Below, piece by piece: positions 39,240 to 48,189 of a stretch of DNA of 48,189 nucleotides. Where the stretch lies: NCBI GenBank assembly GCA_003155655.1, contig PMDS01000054.1:29985-78173 (forward strand), in the 5' to 3' direction. Position 1 is the first letter of the stretch; each line of letters begins with the position of its first letter. The notes beneath the pieces are model-generated. The model saw only the letters and a list, made by a program, of their open reading frames with translations, did no database searches and was not told the origin of the DNA. A program made the position numbers and the translations under genes. This stretch comes from Melioribacter sp. Its GTDB lineage: Bacteria > Bacteroidota > Ignavibacteria > Ignavibacteriales > Melioribacteraceae.

Positions 39240-39312
39240 GCCACCTTAGCTCAGTTGGTAGAGCAGCGCATTCGTAATGCGCGGGTCGGCGGTTCAAGTC
39301 CGCCAGGTGGCT
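39240..39312 (+). tRNA. tRNA-Thr (anticodon CGT)
   Basis: 73 bases. Acceptor GCCACCT/AGGTGGC, D arm GCTC/GAGC, anticodon stem GCGCA/TGCGC with loop TTCGTAA (anticodon CGT), and T arm CGGCG/CGCCA-type with TTCAAGT. The backbone-like gene order ends here and accessory genes begin right after it, as at a typical integration site. Confidence 0.96.
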
Positions 39313-39532
39313 CTGGGTATTAAAACATACGGCGGGGTTTCTAATAATGTTTTATGAAAGGGTTGTAACCAAAAAAAATATTCCTCTTCTCAATTCACAC
39401 CAAATTAAACTTCTGATAGATAACTATAAGTTTTTTTATAAAAATAAATTTAATATAAAAGCGTCATAAATTTTTAAATGGACGGTTGGTTTGGTACAAC
39501 ATCGTTAGTTTGTGAAATCAATTGGAGTAAAT

Positions 39533-40120
39533 ATGGAATTTTATCATTGGGGATTTACGGAAATAATCACAGCGATTGGTGGATTAGGAATTGTTATAAC
39601 TGGTTTATCGACTTGGATTGGGAAAATAATAGCTAACCATATTGTTGAAAACGAAAAAGCTAAAAATGCTTGGGAATTGGAAAGGATGAAATCTCAATTG
39701 GAAATTGAAAAAGAAGAATTATTCCGTTTTAAAGAAAATCAATTTACTTTATATATGGAAGTGTGGAATAAATTACAAGATGTTCAAATATTTGGTGAAC
39801 AATTGTGGAATTCAGTAACTCTAAATGGTTTATTATCATTTTCTGACGCTCTTAAATCTGCAAAAATTTTCGTGAATCGAGGTAAAATACTTCTTTCTGA
39901 TGATGATTATTATAGGATAAATGAAATTCTTACATCTTTTGAGAACTATTATGTTGGAAAAGGTCAGTTATATGAATTTAGAAACAGTCGAAATTTAGAT
40001 TTTGATGGAAGCGATATTAGAAACCAGATTGATAACAATTCTCGTAGGAGACAAGAATATGAACGCCTTCTTAATAAAATTAAGACTGATTTTCGAGTAA
40101 GACTGAGAATTCCAAATTAA
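39533..40120 (+). CDS. Hypothetical coiled-coil membrane protein
   Basis: A 195-residue protein with one N-terminal TM helix (about 8-33: EIITAIGGLGIVITGLSTW). A charged coiled coil follows (about 38-65: NEKAKNAWELERMKSQLEIE), then a helical domain with many aromatic residues. It starts at the ATG at 39533 (GGAG just upstream); a GTG 21 bases earlier is in frame. The stop TAA is part of the repeat at 40118. It is the first member of the cassette-like array. Function unknown. Confidence 0.65.
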   Translation: MEFYHWGFTEIITAIGGLGIVITGLSTWIGKIIANHIVENEKAKNAWELERMKSQLEIEKEELFRFKENQFTLYMEVWNKLQDVQIFGEQLWNSVTLNGLLSFSDALKSAKIFVNRGKILLSDDDYYRINEILTSFENYYVGKGQLYEFRNSRNLDFDGSDIRNQIDNNSRRRQEYERLLNKIKTDFRVRLRIPN

Positions 40121-40168
40121 CCAGCCGTTCAAAATGGAAAGTTATTACCTGGCGGATTAGATGCGGTT
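40118..40168 (+). repeat. Cassette-array repeat, copy 1 (degenerate)
   Basis: Begins with the TAA stop of the preceding gene (TAACCAGCC) and ends CTGGCGGATTAGATGCGGTT. The right arm matches the other copies closely; the inner hairpin has diverged. Downstream, CCTCAGAGGTC and ACCTCGGAGGTTT are further palindromic elements, and GTTAGGC (40285-40291) is an isolated match to the integron core GTTRRRY. Confidence 0.6.
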
Positions 40169-40333
40169 TAATAAAAACCTCAGAGGTCTATTCTTTACCT
40201 CGGAGGTTTAATTGAAGTCGTTTCATGCCGGAGATAGCAGCTGTACAAGGGTTTGTTTTTTAATTTAATTTAATTGGGTTGTGCGTTAGGCGCAAGGCAG
40301 TTAGCTACTAATTATAAATAGAGAATTTTAAAG

Positions 40334-41056
40334 ATGACTTTTGATGTATTTATATCGCATGCAAGTGAGGATAAAGAACAGTTTATTAATCCTTTGATTC
40401 AGGACTTTCGAAATTATTCAATAACTTTCTGGCTCGATGAATTTGAAATTGGCTGGGGTAGTTCTATAATTAGAAAATTGAATGAAGGGCTTTCTAATAG
40501 TAAGTTTGTTTTAATTCTTCTTACCGATAATTTCTTGAATAAAAACTGGACTAAGGCAGAATTGGAAAGTGCTCTTTCGACTGAAATAACAACTGATAAA
40601 CTTATCGTTCTACCTATCATGGTTATCGATCCTGAAAAAGTCTTTAACATATTTCCTTTACTAAGGAGTAAGCTTTATCTTAATTGGAATGAAGGGACTC
40701 AAAAGATTGCTTTTAGATTATCAACGATTCTTAATAGACAATTTAAGAACAGTTGGATTGGCAACCATCCAGCAGAATATTCCGGCAAAGTGTGGATAAA
40801 GATTCTTAAACTTGAAAAGAATCTTCAAATTCCTCATAACTTCACAATAAGATGGGGAACTTGGTTTTATAATGGGCAACTTCCAGTTGATCAAAATATA
40901 TCTGTAAGCTTAATTCATACTAAGGGTATTGATGGATCTTCTTTTCCAATATTTTTTGATATTGATCAACCATGCTACGTAACATTTGGACAAAAAGAAC
41001 TACTCGATAAAAATGTTGTGAATATTAATTACGGCTGGAAAAGAGTAAAAGAATAA
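40334..41056 (+). CDS. TIR-domain protein
   Basis: 240 residues. The N-terminal TIR domain (about 1-135) has DVFISHASEDKE, LDEFEIGWGSSI, KFVLILLTDNFL and the NWTKAELESAL helix. Glu76 is placed like the catalytic glutamate of NAD+-cleaving TIR effectors. The remaining 100 residues form a beta-rich domain (WIKILKLEKNLQIPHNF ... CYVTFGQKE) that I do not recognise. TIR proteins in such settings usually act in anti-phage or conflict systems by degrading NAD+ or making signalling nucleotides. No sensor partner is directly fused. Confidence 0.88.
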   Translation: MTFDVFISHASEDKEQFINPLIQDFRNYSITFWLDEFEIGWGSSIIRKLNEGLSNSKFVLILLTDNFLNKNWTKAELESALSTEITTDKLIVLPIMVIDPEKVFNIFPLLRSKLYLNWNEGTQKIAFRLSTILNRQFKNSWIGNHPAEYSGKVWIKILKLEKNLQIPHNFTIRWGTWFYNGQLPVDQNISVSLIHTKGIDGSSFPIFFDIDQPCYVTFGQKELLDKNVVNINYGWKRVKE

Positions 41057-41064
41057 TTTATATA

Positions 41065-41131
41065 TAACCCGCGTCTTCCCTTATAGAAAACATCGGGACA
41101 GGTAATCGCGGCTAAAGGATTAGATGCGGTT
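41065..41131 (+). repeat. Cassette-array repeat, copy 2
   Basis: TAACCCGCGTCTTCCC, then TATAGAAAACATCGGGA, then GGATTAGATGCGGTT. AACC(C)GC pairs with GCGGTT and TTCCC with GGGA, giving a two-level hairpin with an AGAAAAC loop. It starts eight bases after the stop of the TIR gene. Confidence 0.75.
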
Positions 41132-41194
41132 GCTTTTAAATATGGATGCGTACTAAACGCAACAACATTATTGCACTAACAAATTGGAGTAAAA

Positions 41195-41695
41195 ATGCAT
41201 ATCGATGATGACCATTTATTTAGAGGAGCTGCTTTAACACAGATTGCTGAACATCCAAATTTTACCGCAATCAATGTGTTTAAAAAGAAGAAAAGGATTT
41301 ATAACAATGCCTATAAAATAAACGAAGACATTGGTATTTACATCAAGTATAGTAAGAAACCAACTAAAAATTTTAAAGAGTATGTATTCACATTTCTTTT
41401 TAAACATTTAGAAAACCTGAAAAAACTTGATAGTATGATTACCAAACTATTTGTTGTTTTTGTTTGTGTTAAAGACCGCGAAATATGCGTGATTAGTTAT
41501 TCAGAGATTCTAAAATTAATTGAAGAAAGAAAAAGAAGAGTTGAACACGGAGAAGAGACATATACTATTCTTGTTACAATTTCTAAGAATAGCCGTTTTA
41601 GAGTGTATATGAATTACCCAGGTAGAAAGAAAATGTATTTATCTAAACCAATTATAATTAGTAGAAATCAATTTCCAAAAATACTTTTTGAGTAA
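41195..41695 (+). CDS. Conserved protein of unknown function
   Basis: 166 residues, very basic, opening MHIDDDHLFRGAALTQIAEH. The middle alternates strands and helices (GIYIKYSKKP, YVFTFLFKHL, KLFVVFVCVKDREICVISY). The end is Lys/Arg-rich (NYPGRKKMYLSKPIIISRNQ). The layout could fit a PD-(D/E)XK-like nuclease core with an IxIKY strand, but no full catalytic set is seen, so I do not assign it. A GGAGTAAAA ribosome site precedes the ATG. It is an individual unit of the array with repeats on both sides. Confidence 0.7.
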   Translation: MHIDDDHLFRGAALTQIAEHPNFTAINVFKKKKRIYNNAYKINEDIGIYIKYSKKPTKNFKEYVFTFLFKHLENLKKLDSMITKLFVVFVCVKDREICVISYSEILKLIEERKRRVEHGEETYTILVTISKNSRFRVYMNYPGRKKMYLSKPIIISRNQFPKILFE

Positions 41696-41710
41696 TTATA
41701 TAAAGTGCTA

Positions 41711-41781
41711 CAACCCGCACCTTCTCGATAGAAAACATTGGAATAAGCAGTCTTTCATGCATAACGAAGCGTAGATGGGTT
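41711..41781 (+). repeat. Cassette-array repeat, copy 3
   Basis: CAACCCGCACCTTCTCGATAGAAAACATTGGAA on the left and GCGTAGATGGGTT on the right. The left half is close to the consensus; the right arm has diverged (GTAGATGGGTT for TTAGATGCGGTT). Confidence 0.65.
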
Positions 41782-41817
41782 AACGGCCACGCGTAAAACA
41801 GAATACAAGGAGTAATT

Positions 41818-43080
41818 ATGAACCAAAATCGTCCTATAATTTTGATCCATGGTATTAAAACTCATGCTCATTGGCAGAAAGAACTAGCCAATGCATTAAG
41901 TGAGCAAGGCATTCAACCTAAAATTTATGACTATGGTCGCTTCTCAGTTTTTAAATTTATTTCACAAAGACATAGAAATATACAAATTACTAAATTTTAC
42001 AATTGGTATTGTGAACAACGTGATAGAGTAAGTAATTCTACATCTCGGCAACGCGATTTTAGGCCGTCAGTAATAGCTCATAGTTTTGGTAGTTATATTA
42101 TTGGGTATGCTCTAAAAAAATACGATGATATTACGCTTGGTAGAGTTATACTTTGTGGCTCAATCTTACCAAAAGATTTTGATTGGAACAATTTATTCGC
42201 AAAAAATCAGTTATTTGAAGTTATTAACGACTATGGCGTCAGTGATAATTGGTCAAAATTATCTAACTTATTTGTTAGTGATGCTGGTTCTAGTGGTCAT
42301 TCCGGCTTTTCTATTTCATCTCCTTTAGTAAGGAATAGAAGGTTTGAGTATTTTACTCATAGCAATTATTTTCTTCCTGGTCATTATACACAATGGATAG
42401 AAATCCTGAATGAACCATTGGTTGAATTTCGTACTATTCGTTCTTCTAGTCTACCGATTGATAAAAATTGGAAAGATATCAGACCTTACACACACGAAAT
42501 CGATGAGATTGTTTATAAAGGTCTAAAAGGATATGAAGAGTCAAGAATTCCTGAAGGAATGTCAGAACAATGGTTGACTAGTAATCCAGATATTTATACA
42601 ATTTTAGTTGATCAAGCAGATCGTGTGCATGGTTATTTAAATGCCATGCCCTTAATTAGTTGTACTTTTGATGCAATGATTTCTGGAACTCGCAAGGATA
42701 ATTCTGTAACTCCATCAGAAATTCTTACTTATGAAGACAGAATGGAGGTTGATATTTATTTAATGTCAATTGCAATCCATCCAGACTCTAGACGTCTTGC
42801 TCAAGGCCCTAACCAATCCGCATTTCACAGGCTTCTTTTCGGATTGACACATCGATTAGAATGTCTTGCACGTGAAAATCAAATTTTTGTAAATCGTCTT
42901 GGTGCTGTAGGTTGGACAGATGAAGGCAAACGATTATGTGAAATAATTGGAATGAATATGTACCGAACAGATCCTTTTAATCATCCAACATATTTGCTTG
43001 ATTTAAGACAAGCAAAAGAAAATTCTCGATCTCATAGATTAATTAAAGAATTGTTAGAGGTTTATTTAAAATGTCGTTAA
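41818..43080 (+). CDS. Alpha/beta-hydrolase-GNAT-like fusion protein
   Basis: 420 residues. N-terminal alpha/beta hydrolase (about 1-200): oxyanion HG in IILIHGIKTHAHW, nucleophile Ser89 in IAHSFGSY (GxSxG-like AHSFG), and a candidate catalytic His in FLPGHYTQW. The C-terminal part (about 250-400) resembles a GNAT acetyltransferase: ILVDQADRVHGYLNA, a YLMSIAIHPDSRR strand-loop that would hold acetyl-CoA, then LEC helices and VGWTDEGKRLCEIIGM. Both calls are from motif pattern. The pairing is unusual. An AAGGAG site precedes the start. The unit stands alone in the array. Confidence 0.75.
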   Translation: MNQNRPIILIHGIKTHAHWQKELANALSEQGIQPKIYDYGRFSVFKFISQRHRNIQITKFYNWYCEQRDRVSNSTSRQRDFRPSVIAHSFGSYIIGYALKKYDDITLGRVILCGSILPKDFDWNNLFAKNQLFEVINDYGVSDNWSKLSNLFVSDAGSSGHSGFSISSPLVRNRRFEYFTHSNYFLPGHYTQWIEILNEPLVEFRTIRSSSLPIDKNWKDIRPYTHEIDEIVYKGLKGYEESRIPEGMSEQWLTSNPDIYTILVDQADRVHGYLNAMPLISCTFDAMISGTRKDNSVTPSEILTYEDRMEVDIYLMSIAIHPDSRRLAQGPNQSAFHRLLFGLTHRLECLARENQIFVNRLGAVGWTDEGKRLCEIIGMNMYRTDPFNHPTYLLDLRQAKENSRSHRLIKELLEVYLKCR

Positions 43081-43191
43081 AAAAATAAATATTATGCTGC
43101 CTAAAAAACGTTTCAGTCCGACCAATTCTTACCGAAGAGCGAAGCAGCACAAAGGTCATGGTATCAATAAAATTAAATGGCTTAGTTAAAT

Positions 43192-43634
43192 ATGTTTAAA
43201 AGAATCATTTTAATATTAACAGTGTGTCTAATTAATATTACCCACTCACAGGTAAAGACCGACACGCTAAAATGTAATGGAAATGTGTTATTAAAATTCG
43301 CAAAAAGCATTGATTCACTAGATACGAAAATAGCTAAAGAGTTATTTTAACATTTAGTGGGGGTTGTTCAAATAACGAAGAGTATTCGGAATGGAGTGGT
43401 GAATTGTTATTAAATTTTTTGGACAAATATCCAAGAAAATTTATTGATGTATTATCCTTGAAAGAGAAATACGATTTTAAAAATATCTTCGAAAATTTAA
43501 AGTCTCCCGTTAATGATGGATTTAATCTGGCTAAGATTAAAAAGAATGTTGAAGCAATCAAATTAAAAAACCCAATAAAGAGAGAGATAATAAGAAGAAT
43601 TAATATTGCATTAAATAAAAATAAAATTCCATAA
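43192..43634 (+). pseudogene. Frameshifted gene for a small secreted protein
   Basis: The first ORF (43192-43350) starts with a signal peptide (MFKRIILILTVCLINITHSQ) and stops at TAA after KIAKELF. The following 280 bases continue in another frame, without stops, as LTFSGGCSNNEEYSEWSGE to NKNKIP (43632). One extra T in the TTTT run at 43345-43348 would join them into about 147 residues. So this is a recent frameshift, a sequencing error at a homopolymer, or slippage. Function unknown; the joined protein would be a secreted helical protein. Confidence 0.65.
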
Positions 43635-43670
43635 CCCGAACCTTCCCGGTAGAAAACAGCGGGGCGGGCG
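43632..43670 (+). repeat. Cassette-array repeat, copy 4 (left half)
   Basis: TAACCCGAACCTTCCCGGTAGAAAACAGCGGGG. The TAA is the stop codon of the preceding frameshifted gene. The inner CCCG/CGGG stem and AGAAAAC loop are intact; the right arm GGATTAGATGCGGTT is not found. Confidence 0.7.
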
Positions 43671-43940
43671 GTGGCCATGCCTACGGTAGGTAAACTTCGA
43701 TACATCCGGCGATTGCCGGACACTCCCCGACCAGTTGTTAACTGGCCGGGACAAGCAGCCACCTTGATTTGACGGAGAGAAGCAGTAAAATGGTTGGTTT
43801 TATACTGAGTCGTAGTTTGAAGGATTGAATCTATACTGTTTGAACACAATTACATCGTTGCGTCGTTACAATTGTTTGGTAAGATCAAAATTCGCTATGA
43901 GTTTGAAACAAATGAATAATATTAACTAAAGAATAAAATT
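43671..43940. other. Non-coding spacer with short hairpins
   Basis: No gene is supported; the minus-strand reading frame across it is interrupted by palindromes and has no family motif. TCCGGC/GCCGGA with loop GATT (about 43707-43722) and CCAGTT/AACTGG around GTT (about 43732-43746) form stable hairpins. GAGAAGCAGTAAAATGG (about 43777) resembles the GAAGCAGCACAAAGG motif seen elsewhere in the array. Confidence 0.4.
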
Positions 43941-44777
43941 ATGAAAACTATTCTCAACCCAATCGTTTTTTTGCTGTTGTTAAATACTGGTTTTGCACAA
44001 ACAATTCCTACAAAGAGTTTGTACCTTGGACAAACTCCACCCGGATCAACACCTAAAATATTTAACCTATCTGTAGATACCGGTTATGGACTTACAGAAC
44101 GTGTTGCTATATCTCCCGATGGTAAGGAGATTTATTATGGAGAAGTATTAAATGAATCCATCAGAAAGACCAAGTACTACTCTTATTCCCATGGTGCGTG
44201 GAATGGCCCGTTCGTTTTGTTTAATGACTTTGATGCCCCGGCACTTTCTGCACGTGGAGATACAATGTTTTTACTTCATTTTCAAAACCATACTCCTTAT
44301 TCTTATTTTTCCGTGAGGAATGATACCGGCTGGACTGCTCCGTCTAAATTTTGGAAGGGAATTAATTTGTACTATCTGCAGAAAACAAATACCGGAAATT
44401 ATTATGCATCAGTTGAGAATTCGGGAATTTCGAAAATGGTCATCAATAATGCCGATACGGCATTCTATAGTCTGGAAGCTCCAATGAACAATATAGGAGG
44501 GGATTTTTATATATCGAGGGATGATTCATTTATTATCTTCACCAAACAAACTGGAGATAATTATAAAATGGATCTGTTTATTAGTTTCAGAAAAAAAGAT
44601 GCTACTTGGACATATCCCAAAAGTCTTGGTTCGACTATAAACAATAGCTTCTATAACGTTGCACCTTACGTGACAAGCGATAATAAATACTTATTTTTTA
44701 TAGGGGCAGATACAAAAGGTTCCTCTATTTATTGGGTTCAAATTGATAATATATTAGATATTGTAAAAGATCATTAA
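43941..44777 (+). CDS. Secreted beta-propeller (PD40/TolB-like) protein
   Basis: 278 residues with a signal peptide (residues 1-19, ending GFAQ). At least four PD40-like repeats follow: RVAISPDGKEIYYGEV, APALSARGDTMFLL, DFYISRDDSFIIFT and APYVTSDNKYLFFIGA. Each has the SxD(G/D/N)K-type turn typical of TolB-like propellers. It is likely extracytoplasmic and binds a ligand or protein. It is the largest of the non-toxin cargo genes in the array without a recognised activity. No ribosome site is obvious. Confidence 0.8.
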   Translation: MKTILNPIVFLLLLNTGFAQTIPTKSLYLGQTPPGSTPKIFNLSVDTGYGLTERVAISPDGKEIYYGEVLNESIRKTKYYSYSHGAWNGPFVLFNDFDAPALSARGDTMFLLHFQNHTPYSYFSVRNDTGWTAPSKFWKGINLYYLQKTNTGNYYASVENSGISKMVINNADTAFYSLEAPMNNIGGDFYISRDDSFIIFTKQTGDNYKMDLFISFRKKDATWTYPKSLGSTINNSFYNVAPYVTSDNKYLFFIGADTKGSSIYWVQIDNILDIVKDH

Positions 44778-45155
44778 CATTTTCACCGGTTGTGTTCTAA
44801 ACATGTGCTCAAAATGTCGGCTTCCATACGGTTGTACTTTTCCGCTAAATGAGGATTAAGTATTTTTCCCGTAGAGACGTGATATACTCGTCCATCTATG
44901 GCATAGTTTTTTCGCCGATGGATGAGTGAGTTGTCACAGAAACAATGTCAATACTTTTGAATATTTCATTTTATTGATTAAGTTGAACATTAGTTAAGAG
45001 GTTATCTTAATGTTTTTAGAAAGGAAATTAATTTCACAAAATATAATTTTGTTTTATCCACACCGAATAATAATCCGCACCGACTGCTATAGTAAAAAAT
45101 CAAAAATGCTTTACATATATAATTCGTTCAACTCATTTAGATAAGGAGAATAACA
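44778..45155. other. 378-base non-coding spacer
   Basis: It contains the hairpin ACTCGTCCATC (44886-44896) with GATGGATGAGT (44917-44927), one G-U pair, just after GTAGAGACG. The latter is the half-site of the palindrome at 45652-45687, so this looks like a degenerate member of that family. The right part is AT-rich and leads to an AAGGAG ribosome site at about 45143. Confidence 0.4.
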
Positions 45156-45326
45156 ATGAAACTGAATAAGAATATCGGTATGCTTTTGCTGGGCATCTGG
45201 CTCATCATGAATGGACTAATACCCCTGCTCAATATCTATTTCTCGGGACTCAGCACAATTATGGCAATCCTCGCCGTTGCCGCGGGCGCTTTTATCCTGT
45301 TATGGCACGACAGGTCGATGCCCTAA
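45156..45326 (+). CDS. Small two-TM membrane protein
   Basis: 56 residues (MKLNKNIGMLLLGIWLIMNG ... LLWHDRSMP) with two TM helices, at about residues 7-24 and 32-49. A good AAGGAG ribosome site lies 10 bases before the ATG. Base composition is clearly richer in G and C than its neighbours, suggesting separate acquisition. I have the impression that very similar short proteins occur in many unrelated bacteria, without known function. Confidence 0.75.
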   Translation: MKLNKNIGMLLLGIWLIMNGLIPLLNIYFSGLSTIMAILAVAAGAFILLWHDRSMP

Positions 45327-45482
45327 TTCAGCACAGTAACCAGTAAATGGTTGCTATAAAGAAGTTTGTAAAAAACTTTTTAGATCAAGTGTTATCATCC
45401 TGGGCCGTCAAGTCTGCCCGATTTTGACGGGAACCATTTCTTGACGGAAATAGAAGCTGCACAAAGATTTTTTTTTGTAGTG

Positions 45483-45498
45483 ACAGGTCGTGACCTGT
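45483..45498. repeat. Short palindrome in repeat-rich spacer
   Basis: ACAGGTC pairs perfectly with GACCTGT around GT. It lies in the GTAGTGACAGGTCGTGACC context also present at 48091. Confidence 0.6.
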
Positions 45499-45557
45499 AA
45501 GGTTTAAAAATATAATTTTGTAAAAGAACTCAGAATTTTGCTGATATAAAATTTTAT

Positions 45558-45579
45558 GTGACAACTCTCGAGTTGTCAC
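45558..45579. repeat. Perfect 9-bp hairpin
   Basis: GTGACAACT and AGTTGTCAC pair perfectly around CTCG. Followed by ACTACAAAAAC, it ends in GTCACTACAA, the reverse of the TTGTAGTGAC element that precedes the hairpin at 45483. Confidence 0.65.
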
Positions 45580-45651
45580 TACAAAAACTTTTTGTTGTAG
45601 TACTGTACAACTCCTTGTCGGGAGATAGAGGCAGCTCAAAAGTATTTTTCC

Positions 45652-45687
45652 GTAGAGACGATCCCGACTTGTCGGGGTCGTCTCTAC
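45652..45687. repeat. REP-like 16-bp hairpin
   Basis: GTAGAGACGATCCCGA pairs with TCGGGGTCGTCTCTAC (one T-G pair) around CTTG. A degenerate half is seen at 44871 and a related CGATCCCGACAAGTC at about 46507. It behaves like a dispersed palindromic element. Confidence 0.7.
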
Positions 45688-45776
45688 AAACTTGACGTAG
45701 AAAGAAGCAGCACAAGGTTTGGTAATGTGAGAAAATAAAAAATTGAAGGTTATCGTTCAATGACGTATATTATCTT

Positions 45777-46094
45777 ATGAGAATAATAGAGACTTCGGTT
45801 TTTACTAAAAGGGTGAAAATACTTTTACGTGACGAAGATTATCGTCTGTTACAGAATGAGATAATCCAGAACCCGGAAAAAGGAAAAGTAATAAAAGGGA
45901 GCTGGGGATTGAGAAAAATCAGGTGGTCAATTTCCGGTAAAGGTAAAAGCGGCGGAGTAAGAATTGTTTATTATTGGGTTAGTGCAAAAGAAATTATTTT
46001 AATGCTTTTAATCTATTCTAAAAACGAACAGGATGATTTATCAAACGAACGGTTGAAATTATTAAAATCTCTTGTTGAAAAGGAGTTCAAATGA
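45777..46094 (+). CDS. RelE/HigB-family toxin
   Basis: 105 residues with the RelE/HigB2-like fold: TKRVKILLRDEDYRLLQNEI, then VIKGSWGLRKIRWSISGKGKSGGVRIVYYW, given by position (about 38-67), and a final EIILMLLIYSKNEQDDL strand. Such proteins cleave ribosome-bound mRNA. The Lys/Arg-rich middle and VRIVYYW strand carry the likely active residues. The XRE antitoxin gene overlaps its stop by four bases, the usual toxin-first HigBA order. Confidence 0.9.
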   Translation: MRIIETSVFTKRVKILLRDEDYRLLQNEIIQNPEKGKVIKGSWGLRKIRWSISGKGKSGGVRIVYYWVSAKEIILMLLIYSKNEQDDLSNERLKLLKSLVEKEFK

Positions 46095-46384
46095 AAAACG
46101 AATTATTTTATGAGCTGCAAAAAAGTATAAAAGAAGGCGGAAAAATACTGAAGGGTAAAAAGAAACCGGGCCGTGAGTTTAATTTTGATAACCCGGATCC
46201 TAAAATTATAAGAGAACAATTGGGATTATCTCAAAATAAATTTGCCAGGTTACTTGGAATCAGTGTTTCAACGTTGCAGAATTGGGAACAGGGCCGCCGT
46301 AAACCTGAGGGACCTGCCAAAATTTTATTGAATGTAGCTGCCAACTATCCCGAAGCAATATTTAAAACTGTTTTCCAATCGTAA
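46091..46384 (+). CDS. XRE-family antitoxin (HigA/NadS-like)
   Basis: 97 residues. A basic N-terminal part precedes a helix-turn-helix (about 52-85: IREQLGLSQNKFARLLGISVSTLQNWEQGRR) and the KPEGPAKILLNVAANYPE tail typical of HigA/NadS antitoxins. It neutralises the upstream toxin and probably represses the pair by binding its promoter. Start overlaps the toxin stop (ATGA). Confidence 0.92.
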   Translation: MKNELFYELQKSIKEGGKILKGKKKPGREFNFDNPDPKIIREQLGLSQNKFARLLGISVSTLQNWEQGRRKPEGPAKILLNVAANYPEAIFKTVFQS

Positions 46385-46452
46385 TTAATTCACATGTCCG
46401 CCTGCTTCGGAATGTTTGCCAGCCTTTGGCTGACGTGGCTTACCTGTTCGGC

Positions 46453-46488
46453 GTAACAAAGTGTAGCCGGGACGGATTCAATGCGGTT
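46453..46488 (+). repeat. Cassette-array repeat, copy 5 (right part)
   Basis: GTAACAAAGTGTAGCCGGGA then CGGATTCAATGCGGTT. The right arm is the consensus with one change; the left arm is reduced to TAAC. It sits between the RelE/XRE and MNT/HEPN modules. Confidence 0.55.
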
Positions 46489-46616
46489 GTTTTTTTTTCA
46501 ATAGTGACGATCCCGACAAGTCAGGATCTTATTTACAACAAGTGTGACCGCCGCGGGAATAATAAGTTTATTGATTATACATTGAATAATTAGCAAAAAT
46601 ATGGCATCTTTTAATT

Positions 46617-46913
46617 ATGAAAAAAGATTTACATGAAATATTATCAATGCTTAGGATGTTACTTCCATATGTAACGCAAAATTATCAAGTGAATTCTATT
46701 GAAGTATTTGGTTCATATGTCCGGGGCCAGCAAAACAGCAATAGTGATCTGGATGTTCTGGTAACTTTTTCAAAAATTCCCGGCTTAATAAAATTTCTTG
46801 AATTAAAAAATTATCTATCGGATCAATTAGGAGTAAATTTTGATTTAGTAATGAAGGATTCTCTAAAGCCGGGAATCAGTTCATATATTCTTAACGAATG
46901 TGTTTCTGTATGA
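46617..46913 (+). CDS. MNT-type nucleotidyltransferase antitoxin
   Basis: 98 residues: minimal nucleotidyltransferase with VFGSYVRGQQNSNSDLDVLV (GS plus the DxD metal pair) and NFDLVMKD. In MntA/HepT systems this enzyme adds AMP to the HEPN toxin and inactivates it. The HEPN gene overlaps its stop by four bases. Confidence 0.92.
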   Translation: MKKDLHEILSMLRMLLPYVTQNYQVNSIEVFGSYVRGQQNSNSDLDVLVTFSKIPGLIKFLELKNYLSDQLGVNFDLVMKDSLKPGISSYILNECVSV

Positions 46914-47260
46914 AACAACAAAGAGATTATTCAGCTTATCTTAATGATATTTATGATTTAATTAAAAAGGGAATGTCTTTTATAAATGAAATGACATTTG
47001 AAGAATTTAAAGCAGACGAGAAAACACAATACGCTTTGATAAGAGTTATCGAAATAATTGGGGAAGCCGGCAAGAAAATTCCAGGTGAAATTAAAATGCG
47101 ATCAAATGATATACCAAGGCGCGAAATTAGCGGTATGAGGGATTTACTTATTCACGATTACTTTGGGGTTAATATTAATGTTGTTTGGGAAACTGTCAAG
47201 AACGATTTCCCTAAACTAAAAGATAAAATACAAAAGTTAATTCAAGATATAAATCTTTAG
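46910..47260 (+). CDS. HEPN-domain toxin (HepT/DUF86)
   Basis: 116 residues of helices. The catalytic Rx4HxY motif is RDLLIHDYFG, with IRVIEIIGEAGKKIP before it. HEPN toxins are RNases or NTase partners; here the neighbouring MNT gene makes a HepT/MntA pair. The ATG at 46910 overlaps the antitoxin stop (ATGA), so I prefer it over the upstream in-frame ATG. Confidence 0.93.
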   Translation: MKQQRDYSAYLNDIYDLIKKGMSFINEMTFEEFKADEKTQYALIRVIEIIGEAGKKIPGEIKMRSNDIPRREISGMRDLLIHDYFGVNINVVWETVKNDFPKLKDKIQKLIQDINL

Positions 47261-47417
47261 TACATATAAATACCCAATATTTCATTCAGCAGTCGAATTT
47301 GAACGGAACTATTTGTGGCTAGGCCGCCTGTCGAAACGATGTGTAGACAGGGCGTATTTGTTTTTATTAAATAAAATTTTATTTTATGGTATTACAATTG
47401 GTATTACCGGAGAAAAA

Positions 47418-47663
47418 ATGGCAACTGCAAAAAAAATTGCAATTTCAATAGATGGAAAGGTTCTTAACAGAATTGACAGGCTGGTTAAGAATAAAATGTT
47501 TACCAACCGAAGCAGGGCGATTCAAACTGCAATTGAAGAAAAAATTTACAGGCTTGATAAAACCCGGTTAGCTGTTGAAAGTGCAAAATTAAATAAAGTT
47601 GAAGAGCAGCAATTATCTGAAGAAGGTTTAAAAGCAGATCTGGCAGAATGGGCGGAATACTAA
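47418..47663 (+). CDS. Ribbon-helix-helix antitoxin (MazE-like)
   Basis: 81 residues with an N-terminal RHH DNA-binding domain (KKIAISIDGKVLNRIDRLVKNKMFTNRSRAIQTAI, about residues 5-40) and a C-terminal helical tail (NKVEEQQLSEEG) that would wrap the toxin. I use the ATG at 47418, preceded by GGAGAAAAA; upstream in-frame codons translate spacer sequence. It overlaps the MazF gene by 16 bases. Confidence 0.9.
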   Translation: MATAKKIAISIDGKVLNRIDRLVKNKMFTNRSRAIQTAIEEKIYRLDKTRLAVESAKLNKVEEQQLSEEGLKADLAEWAEY

Positions 47664-47986
47664 GAGGTGATATAGTTTGGGCAAATCTTGACCCGGCTGT
47701 TGGAAATGAACAAGCCAGCAAGAGGCCTGTATTAATTTTAAGTCATAATGTATTTAATGAAAATTCGGGGACAGTTATAGCAGTAGCATTAACCGGAAAA
47801 GAACAGCAAGCGGGATTTCCTCTTACACTCGAAATCAATTCAAAAAACCTGCATAAAAAATCCTGGATAAAAATCAGTCAAATAAGAACGTTATCTATAA
47901 ATAGATTGGGTGAAAAAATTACCCGCATCAAAGAAGAAGAATTAGTTCAGGTAATTGACGGACTTAACGAAATAATTGCTGGTTAA
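47648..47986 (+). CDS. MazF/PemK-family endoribonuclease toxin
   Basis: 112 residues: RGDIVWANLDPAVGNEQASKRPVLILS, then GTVIAVALTGKEQQAG, SWIKISQIRTLS and the final LNEIIAG. The Arg in SKRPV and Thr/Ser in QIRTLS match the catalytic residues of MazF. Cleaves RNA at short sequences. Its stop codon TAA lies inside the repeat at 47983. Confidence 0.94.
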   Translation: MGGILRGDIVWANLDPAVGNEQASKRPVLILSHNVFNENSGTVIAVALTGKEQQAGFPLTLEINSKNLHKKSWIKISQIRTLSINRLGEKITRIKEEELVQVIDGLNEIIAG

Positions 47987-48035
47987 CCCGCACCCTCCCA
48001 TTAGAAAACATCGGGTGGCGGATTCGATGCGGTTT
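47983..48035 (+). repeat. Cassette-array repeat, copy 6
   Basis: TTAACCCGCACCCTCCCATT, then AGAAAACATCGGGTGG, then CGGATTCGATGCGGTT. This is the cleanest copy: left arm, inner stem, AGAAAAC loop and right arm are all present. The TAA is the MazF stop. Confidence 0.8.
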
Positions 48036-48189
48036 TGTAAAAAACCTCGTAGGTTGCTTAGAATTCGAGAAGCAGCACAAAGGTTTTTTTGTAGTGACGG
48101 GTCGTGACTCAATGTTGTAAGGTTAGCAGCTTTGCATATTATTCTTATGAACTCAACCCCTTAATCCCCTTCTCTTATTAAGAGAAGGG
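48036..48189. other. Spacer with GAAGCAGCACAAAGG motif and edge hairpin
   Basis: AAAACCTCGTAGGTT (a palindromic element like that after copy 1) is followed by GAAGCAGCACAAAGG (48069-48083), a T tract and GTAGTGACGGGTCGTGAC. The window ends in a perfect 10-bp hairpin (CCCTTCTCTT, 48167-48176, with AAGAGAAGGG, 48180-48189) preceded by AACCCCTTAATC. The edge may be the left end of another DUF559-type unit. Confidence 0.5.

Follow-up and report, generated by a model that had tools for sequence, protein, structure and literature searches.

A predicted serine hydrolase fused to a GNAT-fold domain that also occurs on TIR and CHAT effectors

The fusion gene and its island

The window analysed here (the whole stretch of 48,189 nucleotides from a Melioribacter sp. 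contig) carries a gene in which an alpha/beta-hydrolase half is followed by a GNAT-like half. The gene and its immediate surroundings comprise the following features.

39240-39313, + strand: tRNA-Thr(CGT), left edge of the inserted region (tRNA detection and congener comparison)
40334-41056, + strand: TIR-domain protein on the same island (TIR_2 at 2.9e-19; RT-TIR-like match)
41195-41695, + strand: 166-aa protein between the TIR gene and the fusion gene (phage family phrog_28860 at 4.6e-12)
41807-41812, + strand: Shine-Dalgarno-like AAGGAG, 5 bases ahead of the ATG of the fusion gene (from the sequence)
41818-43080, + strand: hydrolase-GNAT-like fusion gene, an ORF of 420 aa with an ATG start

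The single 420-residue ORF proposed in the first-pass annotation is confirmed at exactly 41818-43080 (+), and the ORF, the alignments and the structure model agree that the hydrolase and the GNAT-like domain lie within a single chain. The frame is not one that arises by chance, because the longest + strand ATG ORF in 200 mononucleotide shuffles of 39314-48189 reaches only 121 aa. The gene is single-copy in its own genome. The promoter scan gave no surplus over shuffled sequence (27 found vs 28.2 expected). A short ORF is present downstream of the gene, at 43404-43634.

The interval that holds the fusion gene extends over 17,710 bp from the tRNA-Thr to mraZ, whose position on the contig (87008) marks the right edge and lies past the window end. 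Seven congeners were searched for the left-flank gene; six have clear orthologues, all with the tRNA, and five of their contigs reach mraZ. The gap between tRNA-Thr and mraZ in these five informative congeners is 0.2, 0.2, 0.3, 0.5, and 2.0 kb (5/5), which gives the tRNA-Thr(CGT)/mraZ junction the appearance of a hot spot for insertions. The neighbours named in the first-pass annotation, a TIR protein and TA modules, are both real: the TIR_2 match to the former is given above, and TA-type genes of the RelE-like/HTH, nucleotidyltransferase/HepT, and PemK/MazF types lie between 45777 and 47986.

The spacers of the island contain recurrent repeats. Four short patterns have 17 matches on the + strand of the window, which all fall in the island and never lie entirely within a listed ORF, while the − strand has two weak matches (3 and 4 mismatches) outside the island. 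The sites are located in the spacers at 40151, 41065-41131, 41711-41742, 43141, and 43632-43663, and further at 43779, 45453, 45704, 46471, and 47984-48085, such that the repeats recur between same-strand cargo genes in the manner of a cassette array. A search of the genome for an integron integrase gave none at the cut-off and 12 sub-threshold matches, and the same search also gives matches in 14/14 control genomes. When four spacers were folded, neither strand of any of them gave a clear attC hairpin (z from −3.15 to +0.83).

The hydrolase half

The N-terminal half of the protein has the following elements.

41818-42432, + strand: alpha/beta-hydrolase domain, residues 1 to ~205 (sub-threshold Pfam Hydrolase_4; alignment with seven relatives)
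41848-41853, + strand: H11-G12, likely oxyanion-hole motif (in 7/8 aligned rows; the eighth row does not reach the site)
42082-42084, + strand: Ser89, predicted nucleophile (8/8 aligned rows)
42244-42246, + strand: Asp143, predicted triad acid (8/8 aligned rows)
42358-42360, + strand: His181, predicted triad base (8/8 aligned rows)

Both hydrolase motifs reported earlier, IHG (with H11-G12, which we take to form the oxyanion hole) and AHSFG (with S89), are found. In the alignment of the fusion protein with seven relatives drawn from genome and plasmid searches, H88, S89, D143, and H181 are invariant in all eight rows. None of the homologs in these rows has lost the catalytic Ser or His, S89 and H181 being retained throughout. 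The Pfam Hydrolase_4 model matches this half with an E value of 1.2e-4 and 21.9 bits, under the curated cut-off of 27. The single-sequence model of the whole protein has a mean pLDDT of 34.4, which is too low to use for the fold. The protein shares with the alpha/beta-hydrolase esterases and lipases (Hydrolase_4, Abhydrolase_1, DUF676) the nucleophile elbow, the S-D-H order, and the HG motif; it differs from ordinary members in falling under the Pfam cut-offs and in having the C-terminal GNAT-like domain. We take the N-terminal half to be a serine hydrolase, probably an esterase or lipase.

Relatives of the hydrolase occur near defence genes on plasmids. The plasmid search yielded 23 records, and six hydrolase contexts were opened; according to PADLOC, four of the six, as a raw count, have defence genes near the hydrolase. 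In Aminobacter, BilA-D lie upstream on the same strand. In Klebsiella, OloA-like (4.4e-16, partial) and OloB-like (9.9e-84) genes follow directly downstream, with GajA on the other strand. The Enterobacter gene has PDC-M60A and B directly upstream, and the hydrolase itself matches PDC-M60C in its N-terminal part, while in Bradyrhizobium two CBASS cyclase halves and a SAVED effector are convergent to the hydrolase gene. The Nostoc hydrolase, scanned alone, has no PADLOC match. The Aliarcobacter hydrolase has a weak PDC-M63A match in its DUF6932 part, and the gene next to it, which was scanned together with it, has none.

A separate observation concerns the architecture of some of these relatives. 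In Chlorobaculum, Klebsiella, and Aliarcobacter, members of the same hydrolase family carry an N-terminal part that Pfam identifies as DUF6932 in L003 and L102 and that is similar in L011; the Klebsiella protein is encoded near GajA and the OloA/OloB-like genes.

The fold of the C-terminal domain

The C-terminal half contains the three features listed here.

42466-43077, + strand: GNAT-fold domain, residues 217-420, core to ~396 (AlphaFold2 model; Foldseek and VIA-align)
42784-42825, + strand: degenerate acetyl-CoA loop, residues 323-336, DSRRLAQGPNQSAF, with a 6-residue insertion (alignment)
42937-42939, + strand: Cys374 at the usual GNAT Tyr position (alignment column)

Neither Pfam nor NCBIfam has a match to this half, and the GNAT call of the first-pass annotation had been made by pattern only. 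That call is now borne out by profile, model, and structural comparison. The profile A6, built from 17 relatives and searched against PDB sequences, finds 19 sequences at E<=0.1, mostly named acetyltransferases; six of the 19 reach E<=0.01 (best 0.002), and each of these is an acetyltransferase. Five standalone relatives (L014, L015, L021, L031, and L032) score over a Pfam GNAT cut-off. The AlphaFold2 model of residues 217-420, with five sequences as input, has a pLDDT of 76.0 and a pTM of 0.75. With this model, Foldseek returns 116 matches at E<=0.001 (best E 4.6e-6), and among the 50 matches listed nearly all are named acetyltransferases or GNAT-type toxins; VIA-align gives PDB matches up to Z 11.1. 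In the numbering of the model, the three stretches that had suggested a GNAT correspond to the predicted strand 54-63 (GYLNA), the predicted strand 94-104 with the following turn (YLMSIAIHPDSRR), and the predicted helix 152-161 (VGWTDEGKRLCEIIGM). A non-GNAT C-terminal fold is thus not what the prediction gives, since the model of residues 217-420 matches GNATs, and we regard the fold assignment, as predicted from the model, as secure.

The two best VIA-align matches are the GNAT-like decarboxylases GphF (Z 11.1) and SxtA (Z 11.0), with CurA GNATL in tenth place (10.6). These matches raise the possibility that the GNAT-like half is another CoA or acyl-carrier enzyme, a decarboxylase or acyltransferase, and that the whole protein is a small metabolic or natural-product enzyme. 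We consider this very unlikely. The scores of GphF and SxtA are tied with those of serotonin N-acetyltransferase and others, the rows of GphF, SxtA, and CurA standing within 1 Z unit of ordinary GNATs; inspection by eye of the surrounding ORF list reveals no carrier protein, synthase, or pathway gene; and the TIR and CHAT fusions of the same domain, described in the next section, do not fit such an enzyme.

One C-terminal domain on several effectors

The same C-domain is found on proteins with other N-terminal parts. A related hydrolase is fused to it in a Chlorobaculum MAG (L020), with 33% identity over 341 aligned positions; the start of this gene is lost at the contig end, behind in-frame stops. 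Another Chlorobaculum MAG (L022) has a CHAT domain fused to it, with a C-domain match at E 3e-13. The CHAT call derives from PF12770 at 6.7e-12, obtained for L008 (the identical protein from the same gene), and from the PADLOC chat model at 5.9e-19. A TIR domain is fused to it in eight intact proteins (L021, L029, L030, L031, L032, L033, L059, and L064), each with PF13676 at 4.7e-13 or better, and the C-domain match to one of these (L030) is 5e-19. L021 comes from a Bacillota MAG, and the genomes of the others belong to its order, family, or phylum. The domain also occurs standalone, for example on a Bdellovibrio plasmid (L009). This modularity, i.e., the same GNAT-like C-domain on a hydrolase, a CHAT, and a TIR, is the new point of the present analysis.

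The effector parts retain their active-site residues. One Glu is invariant in 10/10 aligned TIRs, and the CHAT fusion carries HFCGHG and NAC; we take these to be the catalytic residues of the two domains.

In a tree of 17 C-domains the TIR fusions appear at two places, with weak deep forks. For the fused rows, the tree requires two effector changes for three states, which is the minimum possible. Repeated effector swapping is accordingly not proved by the tree.

Two further observations were made among the relatives. A radical SAM/SPASM protein (L017:421-2001), from a genome of the taxonomic family to which the window belongs, ends in a GNAT-like domain of the C-domain family. Two genomes of a single genus each have a standalone GNAT-like gene that adjoins a gene for a short protein with a hydrophobic stretch (L014:1480-2686 and L015:894-1926).

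Only one other hydrolase-GNAT fusion (L020) and one CHAT fusion turned up in the searches, which counts against the mechanism proposed below. In another reading, the protein is a housekeeping or cargo hydrolase of the usual kind, to which the second domain was joined by accident and without effect on function. Rarity is what such an event would leave (any match in 7/395 genomes, the own one included), and the gene is cargo on a variable island. The second fusion, from Chlorobaculum, aligns across both domains, however, and the triad is conserved, such that we judge a neutral fusion to be unlikely.

State of the acetyl-CoA loop

The GNAT loop that binds the pyrophosphate of acetyl-CoA, after beta4, was scored as Q/RxxGxG/A. 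This motif is found nowhere in the C-domain of the fusion protein, the loop position being occupied by DSRRLAQGPNQSAF. It is absent from all ten effector-fused rows (two hydrolase, one CHAT, and seven TIR, with L029 omitted as very like L064) and present in all seven canonical GNATs adjoining TIR fusions (the neighbours in L021, L031, L032, L029, L033, L059, and L035); the contrast of 0/10 vs 7/7 has a Fisher p of 5e-5, which is without correction for shared ancestry. The insertion in the loop is present in both hydrolase fusions. At the Pfam level, Acetyltransf_1 is over its cut-off in 8/8 linked GNATs (the seven and that of L064), and no GNAT-family Pfam match at E<=0.01 is obtained in any of the 11 fused proteins scanned. 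The radical-SAM fusion L017 is also without the motif. Among the other standalone members, the motif is missing in six of seven (L009, L014, L015, L034, L060, and L061) and present in L036; L014 and L015 are without it, yet score over the Acetyltransf_1 cut-off.

Many GNATs have a catalytic Tyr in the beta5-alpha4 region, which is not universal. In the corresponding column, four of the ten fused rows, that of the window included, have Cys, and two have Tyr.

The fold is thus common to the fusion C-domain and the GNAT superfamily (Acetyltransf_1, Acetyltransf_7), a family that includes canonical members, while the fusion is distinguished by the missing loop motif and the missing usual Tyr. Since the TIR, CHAT, and hydrolase sites are conserved and the loop motif is absent in the fusions, the effector sites have been kept while the GNAT loop has been lost. 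From the alignment we read the fused GNAT-like copies as non-acetylating, i.e., not a working ACETYLTRANSFERASE. That the motif is gone is no proof that CoA binding or catalysis has gone with it, and the fused domains may bind CoA or another ligand.

These results bear directly on the activity first proposed for the protein, deacylation plus acetylation. A bifunctional enzyme would remove an acyl group with its hydrolase half and acetylate the same class of target with its GNAT half. The two domains do share one chain, and the lineage of the C-domain has canonical members, because the standalone same-family GNATs beside the TIR fusions of L021, L031, and L032 keep the loop. Some GNATs may also tolerate changes in it. 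The motif is nevertheless present in 0/10 fused rows, the acetyl-CoA loop of the fusion protein has DSRRLAQGPNQSAF with its 6-residue insertion in place of the motif, Cys374 stands where Tyr is usual, and the partner of the domain varies among TIR, CHAT, and hydrolase without a common deacylation step. The proposed activity is therefore not borne out, and we find a bifunctional enzyme improbable. What stands of the conflict or defence effector suggested at first is the conflict-type setting, namely the TIR/TA island and the four of six plasmid contexts; the acetylation half of its proposed activity is not supported.

TIR fusions paired with canonical GNAT genes

A canonical GNAT gene directly adjoins or overlaps the TIR fusion in seven of the eight intact cases. 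In three of these a same-family GNAT lies upstream, with a 9-bp gap (L021), a 1-bp gap (L031), or an 8-bp overlap (L032), and in the other four a GNAT of another type lies downstream, with overlaps of 20 bp (L029 and L064, which are very alike and hence not independent) or 17 bp (L033 and L059). For L030, inspection by eye of the 14 kb listed shows no GNAT gene. The pairing of a TIR-GNAT-like gene with a canonical GNAT gene is recurrent, and the literature searched has no name for it.

Two neighbouring cases are worth recording. At L035:837-2523, in the same order, the TIR and GNAT-like parts are in different frames beside an intact canonical GNAT, which is either a broken gene or an assembly error. 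At L059:2625-3590, a second TIR protein (TIR_2 at 7.4e-19) comes directly after the TIR-GNAT-like/GNAT pair, and a three-gene unit is possible there.

No canonical GNAT adjoins the fusion gene of the window. The nearest one found is ~5.5 kb downstream, at ~48615 in window numbering, i.e., past the window end on the same island; it encodes 107 aa and has RSKGYG.

Distribution

Matches to the whole protein at E<=0.001 occur in 7/395 genomes of the phylum, the own genome included, and in 1/164 genomes of the order, which is the own genome. C-domain profiles at the same threshold match 7/395 and 3/98 genomes in two sets, and 26/297 in the order of the L021 genome, where only hits of 1.4e-8 or stronger were examined; at E<=1e-6 they match 4/299, 2/40, and 5/294 genomes. 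The fusion family and its C-domain are rare and scattered.

Scans of contig collections for close relatives of the whole protein found none in either genome or viral contigs. The scan with the C-domain alignment gave three loci in genome contigs and none in viral contigs, and two further viral-contig scans with other C-domain members gave none; such scans miss divergent relatives because they need an exact short peptide pattern. The fusion protein has no match in phage records at E<=1 and none in PHROGs. These searches give no sign that phages carry it.

Relation to known systems

PADLOC-DB 2.0.0 contains no convincing defence model for the fusion protein, the best match being to a cyclase model at 0.0084 over 31 residues. 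The presence of a TIR gene near another candidate effector is reminiscent of Thoeris. That system needs a TIR and a ThsA (SIR2-SLOG, macro, or other known partner), whereas the fusion locus has the TIR without a ThsA match: no ThsA model was found in the four proteins scanned (the fusion, the TIR, 41195-41695, and 39512-40120). We have also considered a multi-gene system in which a nucleotide signal, produced by the nearby TIR, is sensed by the GNAT-like domain in the fashion of Thoeris. The TIR gene at 40334-41056 is two genes upstream of the fusion gene on the same strand, and TIR fusions of the same C-domain exist elsewhere. Against this, spacers of 138 and 122 bp with the recurrent repeats separate the TIR gene, the 166-aa gene, and the fusion gene, which suggests that the three are independent cassettes, and inspection by eye of the ORFs that flank the CHAT fusion revealed no TIR. 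We hold such a system to be improbable.

The GNAT toxins TacT, AtaT, and KacT have the fold in common with the fusion, and toxins of this kind are among the Foldseek matches. They are small free toxins with a DNA-binding antitoxin. In the fusion the domain is instead joined to a hydrolase and is without the acetyl-CoA loop motif, and the gene directly upstream (41195-41695) has no Pfam antitoxin match.

Passages of PMC7159879 and PMC8195603 describe effector-associated domains (EADs), small non-catalytic domains in which a constant domain is found on varied effectors, including TIR, caspase-type, and alpha/beta-hydrolase ones (Kaur et al. 2020, 2021). As set out in those passages, EADs and the C-domain considered here are alike in that one domain type is present on several effector types (here hydrolase, CHAT, and TIR), and they differ in that EADs are small and non-catalytic, while the C-domain has a GNAT fold of ~180 residues. 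EADs are in addition joined to an NTPase or another core component; among the loci read, no fusion of the C-domain to an NTPase came up. As far as these passages go, the EAD principle is the closest known pattern to the fusion. A GCN5-like acetyltransferase is named in a part of PMC7159879 as a possible modifying effector, which is a different role, and a part of PMC12839542 assigns GNATs to a BREX-related system, where they may modify DNA. We recognised no description of TIR-GNAT, CHAT-GNAT, or Thoeris-GNAT in the open literature searched, subscription papers being mostly outside it.

Proposed mechanism and implications

Because its relatives carry the same fold on TIR and CHAT immune-effector enzymes, the fusion appears to represent an as yet undescribed class of defence proteins with exchangeable parts. 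In the mechanism that we propose, the fusion would be a single-protein conflict effector, a hydrolase controlled by a non-acetylating sensor or adaptor derived from a GNAT. The N-terminal serine hydrolase (S89-D143-H181) would be the damaging part. The GNAT-fold C-domain, its acetyl-CoA loop lost, would bind a ligand or partner and, as the sensor or adaptor, would hold or release the hydrolase. The same C-domain may do likewise for the TIR and CHAT effectors, most of the TIR versions being paired with a canonical GNAT. We give this mechanism roughly an even chance; that the GNAT-like half is regulatory, the hydrolase toxic, and the trigger an invader is what we infer.

A wider reading, which we put forward tentatively and regard as doubtful at present, is that a pseudo-acetyltransferase derived from a GNAT serves as a general sensor or adaptor of bacterial immunity on exchangeable effectors of the TIR, CHAT, and lipase types. 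Where the effector is a TIR, the canonical GNAT of the same operon would then set its state through acetylation or an acyl-CoA-linked signal, and in the version of the window a single polypeptide would be both sensor and effector.

The exchange of effectors on a constant domain has earlier led to the recognition of new bacterial immune sensors. A pseudo-GNAT with swapped effectors and linked canonical GNATs is unexpected, with few members so far. If the wider reading is true, it would point to CoA chemistry or acetylation as a means of controlling effectors of the NADase, protease, and lipase types.
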